In this document: positions 37,057 to 56,263 of the stretch, one piece after another
Layout of the letters: each line of letters starts with the position of its first letter
How positions within the stretch are numbered: the stretch's first letter is position 1
NCBI GenBank assembly: GCA_916610825.1
Contig: OU744450.1
Span: 23,931,338-23,995,337 of the forward strand
Direction: 5' to 3'
Length of the DNA: 64,000 nt
Source: Haliclystus octoradiatus
Taxonomy: Eukaryota; Cnidaria; Staurozoa; Stauromedusae; Haliclystidae
The notes under the pieces: generated by a model
What the model was told of the DNA's origin: nothing
Databases searched by the model: none
The model's input: only the letters and a program-made list of their open reading frames with translations
Made by a program: the position numbers and the translations under genes

Positions 37057-40000
37057 TTACGGCGCAATTGCTTTTGGAGCACAACTTCGATCGATTGTTG
37101 AAGCATAAAGTACATGATGACGTTCAATTTGCATCTTTAACGTTGAAACACGAGATAGAAAAGCGTCAATTTTATCACGATTTACATTGACGGCGTTACG
37201 TAAACTATGTAATCCAGAGTTCAGATTAAGTGCACTAAAATTAAATCGCGTTGACGATATATCAGATTGAAGTGACGCTAAAAGCGTTGTATCAATAACA
37301 GGTAAGTTTCTAATTCCTCGTCCAAGCGATTGTAATGACGTTGCAGACGTAGCAGCAGAATTTAACGCAACATTTGAGCTTGCTAACGTCGTCTGACTTT
37401 CAACGCTGAGCTTGGTAATCTCTGCTGTGAAGTTTAAACATTCATTAAGATATGGTGTTATACTTGTATCGACATATTGTTGGACTTGGTCTCGATGAAC
37501 AAGGCTGATGGCATTGCTGGTCTCATTTTGAAGGGCCAAGGCACGAGACAAGATTCCATCTACCAACTGAAAATGAAATTTAAATATTTAAATACATTTT
37601 GATTTATCCATTCTTATTTTAAATTTTATCGTATCTTGTAAATCTTTGTTAAATATTGAAAATTATAATTAAATTGATATAGGTATTAGATTTGTCAGAA
37701 TCGTCCATATAAGTTTGATATTTACTGTAGTTGTTATCGCAGGAGTACAATAATGTTGCTTCAATGTCCACCCCGGAGAGCAGATGATTCATCCAGCTAG
37801 AGCCTACGTGGAGTTGATCTCGTATGAAGTATAGAAGCAACAGGATCATCAAGAGCGATCATCATTGTTAACTGATTTAGGGACCACCTGTCTTAGTGGT
37901 CAAATCAAACATTACTATTAATCAGAGACGCTTGAAACCGATCTATGTAGACATTATGTAGATATACCCTCGTTTGTAATGGTAATTATGAATACCTCCT
38001 CTAGTGGCCACCTTTCTCAATGACCATATCAATCAAAACGCACAGAGACTGTCTTTAAGGGTTCGATTCTGTGTCAGACCACATCATAGACTTAGTAGAA
38101 CATTACACAATGTTCTAAAGCTAGTCTTTTTTTGGGGGGGGGAGAACACAAGTCGGAATTTTTGGGGAAGATAAGTATTGCAGCTTAATGAGTCACCTCA
38201 GGTCAATAAAGATAATGATGGCTTTTATCATCATCTATCACACATCTCTATAAAAGTAATTAAACGCATAGAAATACATTAAATTTCCTTTACCTCATTT
38301 TCAGCAAGTGTTAATCGATGAGCTTCTTGGCTTGCAGTTTTTGCATTGTTTACATTTTGTGTTGGTAATTGTAATTGTAGACCAACCCCTTGGGCCGTGT
38401 TCAATAATTGTGTGACAGTTGTTTGAACATCGTCAACCTATTGTGATACAAATATGAAATGTGATGTCACGTATTTTATGTATATTGTTTGGAAGATAAG
38501 ATAAAGTTTCCTAATTATTCCATTCTATTGACTCAATTCTGTATATCAAGGTCAGTTGCCTCTAGTTGTCAATAAATTTAGATCCTATCCTCATTGACTG
38601 TTTTACATACAGGTCTTAGTGATACTAACAGGGTTACTTTACAATACGTTTGTTAATAATGGGTAATGTAATATGGATTTTTTAGAAGAATATATCATAT
38701 CAATATAAACTAAATAATGTTTGCTCTGATTGGTTGAGCCATCTCGTTCTATTTATGGATAAACCAATCCCAATGATTAAAAAAATTTGATTGACATTGA
38801 TTGATTCACTCATTCAGTCAATTTCAATTAATACAATAAACCAGGTTAGAGGTTATCGTCAGTTATTTTTTCATTTCCTATTTCATGCTTTCCCCAAAGG
38901 AATAAAATTTGGGATAATTCTGTTGAATCATTCAGAATCATCCCGAATCAAAACAATGACATTTGAGACTTCGAATTGGTTTATTATCAGCTCGTCCTCA
39001 TTTTTGACACTCAATAATGGTTAATTGGCGGATCTTATTCATTAATGAACAGTAGACAAATCAGTCTATGAGTATAACTTCAGGGGCAGGCTATTTCTAT
39101 ATGTTTCGTATAAGGGGACATTCAAATGTTAGAGGACTTTTTAATTAAATGTTTCTTTTTTCGTTATTTAGGGTAATATGACCTTTGTATTAAAGTATAT
39201 TCGGCATAGCTTATCTTTTTGATGATCTGAAACTTTTTATGGTCAAAATCTGTTCTATTTGAAAAACTTGTCGAGGTCCAGTATTTGGAAGTTACTCTGT
39301 ACTGTATAAGATTTTAGCCTCTTATCATCAAGCCTCTCAATTATGTATTCCAATATTTAATCATTGAATTCACTTATATAACAATATCTTAATCCACCAT
39401 CGTTACAACTCCCATACCAGCTCTATAAATCGTAAACATATCAAAATGACAATCTGATAGATAAACTTACAGCAGTCAGTGCTTTAGCAGAATCAAGAGC
39501 AGCTTGCTCAGCAACAGCATTGAAATTAGTCACAGTATTAAGCATGTCCAAAGCTTCTGATCTTGTTTTAATAGCAGTACTGACTGAAGCTTTGCTACGT
39601 TCTAATGCATTTGTACTAGTCTGTGCTACAAATAATGCACGTCTTTCAACAGTACTGACTTGTGAGTCAAGGATAAGACCTTGTTGTTTAATAAGTGAAA
39701 TTTGTTGTGCTATAGCATTGTTACCACGTTGCGCAGATGCAACACGTTCATTGATTGTATTGCTCCGTAATATCAATGAGGAGGTGATATCATTCAGACG
39801 TGTAATCTCCTGTAAGAATAACACATATAAATAGTTTGTTAATAGATTTATCACTCAGTCGAAGAGTGCCTTTCATGAACAGTTATGAAAACGACACCAT
39901 GAACATTGAACAGTTCATGGAAATTTGATGATTATTTAGCATTCATGAACGGTTTTCACAGTTTATGAAATCGACATGATCAGTTCATGAACAGTCTATA

Positions 40001-55000: not shown

Positions 55001-56263
55001 TTAAATACAGGTTTCACTGTATATGAGTTCAACAAATTGACCACTGTGACTGTCTATACTACTAAGCCTATGTGTCCTATCAAAGGATCAATTTATCAGC
55101 CTATTAAAGACTACCTATGATAGCAAGGTTCAATGTGTATAGCCTGCCAAATCCTAGATCTCTATCCTATCATAGGCTTGATTTTTAGCCTATTTACAAG
55201 CCTATTCAGCCTAGCAAAAGTTCAATTTATTAGCCTTCCAAGGCATACCTAGCCTATCAAGGTGAAGGCCTTAGAATATGTCAGCCTACTTACTTTGACA
55301 TTGATTGGCGTGTGTTTCGTTAGCTTCCATCCATTCTCTATTATTGTATAATGGCAAACAAAATTGACAATCTTGACCTGTTGTAAAATGCTGACAATCA
55401 CAAACTTCAATCCCATTAATAAAATCACAAAATTCTCCGTGTCCATGACAATTACATCTTGCATCAATTCTAACATTTGAGATAGCATAATAATATTGAT
55501 TTAAAGTTGCTTCTGAATCGATATATTCTCTACCGTCAGTACCGGGATATTCTAAACGTAACCGTACATCTGTAGAATCCATTGATTTATGTACATCATG
55601 GTTAAGATATTGTAAAGGATTATAAATTCCAGCACGATTAAATACAACCATACCACCAGATCTTGGAAATTCACCGCTATATAATTGTGAACATATTACT
55701 TTAAATGGATTATTTGGATCAGGTGGTGGATCCGCAACCATATTGTATGCTGTTAAACAATTTTTGGCATAATATTGATATGGTTTAAATGTTTTACCAA
55801 AATCTTGTGAATGTTCAATAATCATTTGTTTAGGTCTTTCTGCTTTAAATGTAACGTAAACACCACCGCTTATAAAATATCGTTTTTCAAAAGAAATAGT
55901 AATGTTCACTTTTAATGGAAAATATAACTGCGATAATCCATTTTGATTCGTTTCCCACCAATTTTGTGATTGCCACCATGTTACATTTAAGGGATTAAAC
56001 GAATCAACGATAAATGAAGCAGGATGCCGATTCGTTTGTGAGTTTTGATCACATATTTTACATTGTTTTTCGGGACCAATTTCACAATATCCAGCCAATG
56101 GATTACCGCATGTATTTGTTGAAAATACTTTTTTATTTAAAGCAGCATTTTTAGGAAATGTTATACAAGGTAATGCACCACCTTGTGCATCATAGCATGC
56201 TGAGTAACCAAGTTTAAATAGTTCGAAAAAGATTAATAAACGAAGCCATAACATACTATACAT
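37057..56263 (-). CDS. Laminin chain with both IV-B and IV-A domains and no LG domains
   Basis: Seventeen exons chain in phase: 56263-55294, 54777-54610, 52945-52772, 51325-51116, 50858-50691, 50217-49618, 49015-48872, 48545-48312, 47037-46847, 45900-45705, 45171-44983, 44489-44262, 43531-43367, 42720-41939, 39809-39471, 38437-38294 and 37566-37057. They sum to 5412 nt (1803 aa). Order: signal peptide; LN domain ~22-270 ([21 protein letters not shown]); about five LE repeats; laminin IV type B ~525-755 ([28 protein letters not shown]); two LE repeats; laminin IV type A ~890-1070 ([22 protein letters not shown]) set inside a split LE; two LE repeats; a coiled coil ~1215-1803 opening with ECPPCYGLI as in gamma chains. 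It ends SCAPKAIAP and stop. Laminins are heterotrimeric basement-membrane proteins; the LN domain polymerises and the coil trimerises. Beta chains have IV-B only and gamma chains IV-A only, so this is a hybrid. Confidence 0.88.
39895..41875. repeat. 131-bp tandem repeat array (~15 monomers) in a laminin intron
   Basis: The phrase 'gatgaacatgaaaat' recurs at exactly 131-bp steps (its 'aacatg' at 40048, 40179, 40310, 40441, 40572 and on to 41751). Each monomer contains 'gttcatgaacag' and 'gttaac'. Two monomer types are interleaved: 'gttcaaaagcgttaaaggtc' and 'gtccataagcgtgaaaggcc'. The array fills most of the intron between exons 14 and 15. Confidence 0.9.
43640..44190. repeat. TTCATGAAC-rich repeat in laminin intron 12
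   Basis: Two clusters (about 43640-43710 and 44025-44190) contain many 'gttcatgaac' and 'cttcatgaact' words, related to the 131-bp array and to the 9.4-kb cluster. Confidence 0.6.
45322..45503. mobile_element. TA-flanked MITE, CAGTCAAACCTG family
   Basis: Begins CAGTCAGACCTGTTATAATA after TA (45320-45321) and ends CAGATTTCACTG before TA (45504-45505). Laminin intron 10. Confidence 0.7.
46033..46209. mobile_element. TA-flanked MITE, CAGTCAAACCTG family
   Basis: Begins CAGACAAACCTGTTATAACG after TA and ends CAGGTTTCACTG before TA. Near-complete copy in laminin intron 9. The rest of that intron (45901-46846) holds no gene. Confidence 0.7.
47096..47275. repeat. Decayed copy of the CAGTCAAACCTG MITE
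   Basis: 'ggtgaaacctgtgtataaca' at the left and 'ccgctataacaggtttgcct' at the right, with diverged centre. Laminin intron 8. The rest of this intron to 48311 is AT-rich with no feature I can name. Confidence 0.55.
48605..48850. repeat. TTCATGAAC-rich repeat in laminin intron 7
   Basis: Dense 'gttcatgaa', 'gttcattaac' and 'catgaactgtt' words, of the same family as the 131-bp array. Confidence 0.55.
49430..49555. repeat. TTCATGAAC-rich repeat in laminin intron 6
   Basis: 'aacagttcatgaagaaattt', 'aaactgttcatgaattg' and 'gttcatgaaca' words in a ~120-bp cluster of the same family. Confidence 0.55.
51412..51616 (-). mobile_element. tRNA-Gly-like SINE or pseudogene
   Basis: On the minus strand the head (51616-51538) reads 'ggtagttcaattcaatggca' then 'gaatgcacgca' and a degenerate B box 'gtgttagattcc', resembling a tRNA-Gly. 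The T-arm and anticodon arm do not fold properly. An AT-rich body follows. It lies in laminin intron 3. Confidence 0.45.
52119..52295. mobile_element. TA-flanked MITE, CAGTCAAACCTG family (good copy)
   Basis: CAGTCAAACCTGTTATAATG after TA (52117-52118) and GCAGGTTTCACTG before TA (52296-52297). This is one of the best-preserved members. Laminin intron 3. Confidence 0.75.
53498..53780. mobile_element. hAT-like MITE, complete copy
   Basis: CAGAGCCATCTATTTACAAG at the left is mirrored by CTTGTAAATAGATGGCTCTG at the right. Flanks atagttac (53490-53497) and gtagttac (53781-53788) give an 8-bp target duplication with one mismatch. It lies in laminin intron 2. The remainder of 52946-54609 is AT-rich and shows no exon. 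Confidence 0.75.
54363..54534. repeat. Relative of the GTCCGACAAA MITE
   Basis: Starts 'cagggtctggtaaaggg' and ends 'tttctggaatctaggatccc' then 'tttgtcggaccctg'. The same closing phrases occur at 34.9 and 63.9 kb. Confidence 0.45.
54843..55019. mobile_element. TA-flanked MITE, CAGTCAAACCTG family
   Basis: CAGTCAAACCTGCTATAACA after TA (54841-54842) and CAGGTTTCACTG before TA (55020-55021). Laminin intron 1. From 55022 to 55290 the intron has a loose repeat of 'gcctatcaa' / 'agcctat' words. Confidence 0.75.

Follow-up and report, generated by a model that had tools for sequence, protein, structure and literature searches.

Results and Discussion

The window analysed here, 64,000 nucleotides of genomic DNA from the stalked jellyfish Haliclystus octoradiatus (contig C6, 23.931–23.995 Mb in a 261.9-Mb assembly), carries a laminin gene of 17 exons on its minus strand (37057–56263), the exon model of which we rebuilt from the sequence. 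All 16 introns show GT...AG borders and phases 0 or 1 only, and the frame runs unbroken from the ATG at 56263 to a stop codon ending at 37057, giving a spliced product of 1803 amino acids (aa). Standard laminins are built from three chain types, alpha, beta and gamma. The chain encoded here is laid out as LN, LE repeats, IV-B (or LF), LE, L4 (or IV-A), LE, coil and stop. A sequence-only reading of the window had proposed such a single phase-consistent chain with both IV-B and L4, a gamma-like CPPCYGL at the start of the coil (found at residues 1214–1220) and, after the stop, 2.4 kb without an LG-like frame, and all of these features were recovered in our analysis.

Exon 1 (55294–56263; all exons on the minus strand) encodes a hydrophobic start that by eye resembles a signal peptide, the whole LN domain and the first LE. 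LE repeats follow in exon 2 (54610–54777), exon 3 (52772–52945) and exon 4 (51116–51325), the last of which also begins a truncated six-cysteine LE that ends in exon 5 (50691–50858), where IV-B/LF starts. The core of this domain lies in exon 6 (49618–50217), as identified by hhalign, AlphaFold and Foldseek. Exon 7 (48872–49015) and exon 8 (48312–48545) return to LE, exon 8 adding the first three cysteines of the LE that carries L4. According to Pfam L4/IV-A occupies exon 9 (46847–47037), exon 10 (45705–45900) and exon 11 (44983–45171), which also holds the remainder of the interrupted LE, and further LE is found in exon 12 (44262–44489) and exon 13 (43367–43531). The coil, recognised by coil hidden Markov models (HMMs), begins in exon 14 (41939–42720) with a gamma-type CPPCYGLI and continues through exon 15 (39471–39809) and exon 16 (38294–38437) into exon 17 (37057–37566), which encodes the coil end, a C-terminal cysteine and the stop codon, with no LG found beyond it. 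The position of LF after the six-cysteine truncated LE and of L4 between cysteines 3 and 4 of an LE is the geometry printed for known laminin chains, where LF follows a truncated LE without its last disulfide and L4 sits between cysteines 3 and 4 (PMC5338690); the same paper assigns no known function to either LF or L4.

A profile search of the 1803-aa product, a check that the sequence-only reading had suggested, gave Laminin_N (171.7 bits) and Laminin_B (L4/IV-A; 61.8 bits, residues 931–1050) above their cut-offs and 11 stretches of EGF_laminin, while LAMININ_IV_B scored 20.6 bits, under its cut-off of 27 bits, and no LG family appeared. Six alpha C-terminal queries were also compared with all six-frame open reading frames of at least 20 aa in the window (E up to 1), and no match was found at 34–37 kb. 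Only one query (P0088) matched at all, five times and always on the LE exons of the chain itself, because this fragment ends in LE repeats; as a control, five of the six queries, including P0190 itself, matched the alpha protein P0190. Two repetitive features were seen in the introns of the gene. Intron 14 contains a tandem array (39930–41865) with a period of 131, 14.8 copies and 91% matches, and a short element with GACCACTATAGACAGGTGGCC-like words recurs at 45340–45520, 46030–46220, 47080–47300, 52110–52310 and 54820–55010, resembling, by eye only, a small palindromic mobile element.

As the IV-B domain stayed below the Pfam cut-off it was compared by other means. The Pfam IV-B model matches only 8 of the 12 rows of our alignment A1 (the window included) at E 0.01 and therefore suits this branch poorly. 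In hhalign the IV-B stretch of the window alone matched nine beta IV-B rows with 97.5% probability (E 7e-12) compared to 0.16% for gamma L4, and the 23-row family set reached 99.7% (E 1e-26) with the beta rows and less than 1% with the L4 sets; it also aligned with the IV-B-like stretches of alpha chains (E 4e-13). The AlphaFold model of exon 6 has a mean pLDDT (predicted local distance difference test) of 83.8, and its best Foldseek match in the PDB is the LE5-LF-LE6 structure of laminin beta2 (5lf2; E 4e-7, TMq 0.59), a result not wholly independent because the 29-row alignment used for modelling contained eight beta chains. Profile comparison and predicted fold together support a beta-like IV-B, which at 236 aa aligns with beta IV-B along its length. 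For the family L4, hhalign gave E 3e-42 with gamma and 6e-31 with alpha. Since the family HMMs were built from family rows, their scores within the family are circular and only cross-group scores carry weight: the first L4 profile reached 53–115 bits with gamma and 14–68 bits with alpha, two ranges that overlap, and the IV-B profile 22–61 bits with beta and 10–26 bits with the alpha IV-B-like stretches.

The comparison of coils points to the gamma chain. The first family coil profile matches the majority of gamma coils from end to end, and in the opposite direction all 23 family coils obtain a score with a gamma-coil HMM, 21 of them at 32–147 bits and the other two at 13 and 5 bits, the window coil giving 63 bits across nearly its whole length. 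The same HMM gave −4 to 29 bits with ten beta C-termini (taken as the last 640 residues, so that some LE is included) and matched 5 of 15 whole alpha chains with up to 24 bits. All 14 gammas and 21 of the 24 family rows have the C..CY coil start, which is absent from the 10 betas. The stretch from this C..CY/F start to the chain end is 577–590 residues long for 19 of the 23 family rows and 579–596 for 11 of the 14 gammas. On the basis of these alignments and profiles, gamma-like character is supported for the coil as well as for L4. The ends of the chains differ: a cysteine followed by an acidic tail is found in 11 of 14 gammas and in only one of 31 family-labelled rows (P0007, ending in CGD with a terminal Asp). 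Those cnidarian members with complete ends, including both copies from the Haliclystus genome, end in or near a cysteine that aligns with the gamma cysteine. None of the 24 family rows contains a nidogen motif of the NxDPNA type. Among the 14 gammas six have it in their LE region, and one more match, that of P0222, falls in the coil.

The seven best matches of the initial protein search span 95–100% of the chain: P0001 (1813 aa) and P0002 from Rhopilema show 44% identity to it, P0003 from Hydra and P0004 42%, P0005 41%, P0007 from Nematostella 34% and P0006 from Stylophora 32%. Hydra, Rhopilema, Nematostella, Stylophora and crinoids all have proteins with this layout that can be aligned with the chain over its full length. 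We then compiled 328 records, namely 326 public proteins from the best 120 matches listed per search, the window chain and the translation of exon 6, a scope from which absence of the class in vertebrates or arthropods cannot be concluded. With profile cut-offs of 25 bits at least 31 of the 328, the window and 30 public proteins, contain both IV-B and L4; an LN match is present in 29 of these 31 (not in P0129 and P0152) and a family-coil match in 30 (not in P0296), and no LG family is among the Pfam matches listed for the 30 public proteins. Twenty-eight of these 30 were assigned to one chimeric class, for which we take IV-B and L4 together in an LN/LE chain with a C-terminal coil and no LG, all of which the window chain has. 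Its members come from cnidarians (Hydra, Rhopilema, Nematostella, Stylophora, Montipora, Dendronephthya, Actinia), echinoderms (Anneissia, Antedon, Patiria, Asterias, Diadema, Lytechinus, Strongylocentrotus, Apostichopus, Holothuria), hemichordates (Glandiceps, Saccoglossus), molluscs (Liolophura, Gigantopelta, Solemya, Batillaria) and the nemertean Lineus (a record without LN), and their database names conflict with each other (alpha-1/2/3/5, beta-1/2, gamma-1/2). As the class is common to Cnidaria and several bilaterian phyla it must be old.

Two proteins with both domains were rejected as members. Haliotis P0152 groups in the L4 tree with P0175, P0219 and P0096 and was missed by the first coil profile; the profile that later gave it a family-coil score had P0152 among its own rows, which makes that score circular. 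The 24 rows labelled family before classing had included P0152 as well as P0134, which has no IV-B or L4 match. Diadema P0296 has no family-coil match and was counted with P0152 as another class. This other class of long laminin-like chains (P0175, P0219, P0096, probably P0296 and P0152; about 2070–2130 aa) has L4, a different coil and an IV-B match in P0296 and P0152 only. It is present in the Haliclystus genome at C6 27.611–27.618 Mb (L006, L019, L026), the LN exon being closest to P0219 and P0096, and it seems to share a contig with the chimeric class in Rhopilema (P0002, P0175) and Diadema (P0123, P0296), which suggests linkage.

Phylogenetic analysis of LN, L4 and coil had also been among the suggested checks. 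In the LN trees the chimeric class forms a clade of its own (100/95) next to alpha (100/100), beta (100/100) and gamma (100/99), and the window row is placed beside rows of hydrozoan and scyphozoan type, which makes a medusozoan cnidarian its probable source. P0007 from Nematostella and P0232 from Strongylocentrotus, in both of which the profiles find IV-B together with L4, form a clade with the window (97/94 in a tree using only three or four rows each of alpha, beta and gamma; 100/95 in the tree without the P0232 row). The long branches P0128 and P0134 were left out, as were P0219 and P0096, and P0175 gave no LN row. The forks between the four clades are weak, and AU (approximately unbiased) tests do not choose one order among them. 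With its gamma-like coil, mixed IV-B/L4 short arm and separate LN clade the class therefore combines a gamma-like long arm and a mixed short arm with its own LN type.

The same genome contains further laminin genes. A canonical gamma (C6 25.661–25.677 Mb) is colinear with a nemertean gamma, has L4, a gamma coil and no IV-B match, and ends in a cysteine and a Glu-containing tail. A second copy of the chimeric class lies about 1 Mb from the window (C6 22.941–22.956 Mb) with the same domain order; its LN falls within the class (100/96), and it scores 29.6 and 20.7 bits for IV-B, 47.6 for L4 and 46.7 and 36.8 for the family coil. A beta-type gene at C10 12.80–12.82 Mb was assigned from LN pieces 49–63% identical and a coil 26% identical to a snail beta, and alpha-type exons were located at C1 near 10.965–10.971 Mb. 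Given the canonical gamma the chain is no stand-in for a missing gamma, and it is probably not a stand-in for a missing beta either. We also observed that five LN-domain loci lie on the one 27.8-Mb contig C6 (19.0–27.6 Mb), including the canonical gamma, the two members of the class and, at 19.04 Mb, a gamma-like LN that is perhaps a netrin, with the beta-type gene and the alpha-type exons located apart from this group.

From these data we favour, with somewhat better than even confidence, the reading that the gene product is a secreted laminin chain, belongs to an old chimeric beta/gamma class (LN-LE-IVB-LE-L4-LE-coil) and takes the gamma position of a trimer. Its coil would join an alpha and a beta-type partner, the C-terminal cysteine of the cnidarian members would form an interchain disulfide, and the LN tips would join laminin nodes so that the trimer polymerises. 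Binding to integrin would be weak because the class has no gamma-type acidic tail, the Glu three residues from the end of gamma1 being needed for integrin binding and gamma3 without it showing none (PMC11260871). Weak binding would also be expected for nidogen, as the class has no NxDPNA-type motif; the nidogen contacts of gamma1 are D800, N802 and V804 (PMC11260871). The gamma-position reading has to be weighed against several observations. The canonical gamma could already fill this position, the best LN tree joins the class to beta (62/22; 92/77 in another LN tree) and not to gamma, and a tree constrained to place it with gamma is neither preferred nor rejected by the AU test (p-AU 0.465). 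Family and gamma are split in the coil tree at only 51, the bilaterian ends compared do not have the C-terminal cysteine except for one doubtful gene end (P0234), and the missing nidogen motif is weak evidence as 8 of 14 gammas also have none in their LE region.

A chain in the beta position, or two class copies pairing with one alpha (alpha + beta/gamma + beta/gamma), maybe as in sponges, is a tentative alternative that we consider clearly less probable. The beta-type IV-B and the weak LN connection to beta would fit it, the genome does have two copies on C6, and two chimeric chains in Oopsacas together with no beta in Amphimedon or glass sponges have been described (PMC10280926). Against this the beta-coil HMM scores only 12 of 23 family coils with at most 16 bits, the LAMB1 helical model PF23219, present in the beta control, is missing in all 12 family rows tested, a beta-type gene exists on C10, and beta orthologues are stated for Amphimedon in PMC4582122. 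That the chain is an alpha3/5-type short arm which lost LG, an option of the sequence-only reading, is very unlikely: although alpha3/5 chains also have an LF-like domain followed by L4, the family IV-B aligns with their IV-B-like stretches and LN held with alpha is not rejected (p-AU 0.446), its 236-aa IV-B matches beta IV-B over its length compared to an insert of about 580 aa in alpha3/5, coil and L4 appear gamma-like, LN lies outside the alpha clade and alpha-type exons are found separately on C1. The wrong joining of two neighbouring genes, beta-like (exons 1–7) and gamma-like (exons 8–17), for which nothing beyond the odd domain mix speaks, is hardly credible, since all 11 aligned relatives are colinear across the exon 7/8 join as single proteins (Dendronephthya P0008 ends early in the coil), P0001 stems from contigs of at most 5,940 bases without long introns and is probably transcript-derived, and the second class copy, about 1 Mb from the window, repeats this domain order. 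The full-length relatives likewise disfavour a recent domain fusion, which had been considered from the sequence. Of the ancestral beta/gamma intermediate suggested there, the beta/gamma-type character stands, with a beta-like IV-B and a gamma-like L4 and coil; the ancestral part is not shown by the LN trees, whose four clades have no firm order.

Outside the laminin gene the window contains, upstream and on the other strand, an SH3-SH2 exon (62034–62846, plus strand), by eye the beginning of a tyrosine kinase resembling Abl. At 18013–32934 two frames for polysaccharide deacetylase and two for chitin-binding (CBM_14) domains lie in opposite orientations, perhaps a duplicated chitin-deacetylase-like pair, and a reverse-transcriptase fragment is located at 5159–5998 (minus strand).

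Conclusion

In summary the class looks like a widespread fourth laminin chain type, scattered in the databases under alpha, beta and gamma names, and its interest lies in the biochemistry of such a chain. What is new here is that two copies of the class occur in one genome together with a canonical gamma, a beta-type gene and alpha-type exons, and in such a cnidarian trimer assembly becomes testable. It is conceivable, but rather unlikely at present, that medusozoans keep a second laminin system beside alpha-beta-gamma. In its beta/gamma-class trimers one copy would take the place of gamma and the other perhaps that of beta, and they would polymerise through LN without gamma-tail integrin binding or nidogen recruitment; such a system would be a living representative of the earliest animal laminin.

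The chain very probably belongs to the chimeric class already noted in sponges. In 2012 Fahey and Degnan reportedly described an additional type of chain, present in Amphimedon, Nematostella and Strongylocentrotus. Two chimeric beta/gamma-like chains are known from Oopsacas minuta, as in Amphimedon, and PMC10280926 credits such chains to Fahey and Degnan 2012 and Whittaker 2006 and puts them beside alpha-like and gamma-like ones in the animal ancestor; its statement of no beta conflicts with PMC4582122, which gives alpha, beta and gamma orthologues in sponges including Amphimedon. Our likening to the sponge chains follows this description (chimeric, beta/gamma-like), and the equivalence of layout is our own reading. 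In the parts of the literature searched we found no statement of a gamma-type coil without the gamma integrin tail in this class and no report of its binding partners. Compared to the standard chains, it resembles laminin gamma in L4, a coil of similar length and the C..CY start, but differs in having IV-B, in the missing nidogen-type motif and acidic integrin tail and in an LN outside the gamma clade. With laminin beta it shares LN, the truncated LE followed by IV-B/LF and the lack of LG, but it also has L4, its coil is not beta-like and the LAMB1 helical domain is missing. As in alpha3 and alpha5, its short arm has an LF-like insert and then L4, but the insert is much shorter, LG is missing and both coil and LN clade are different.

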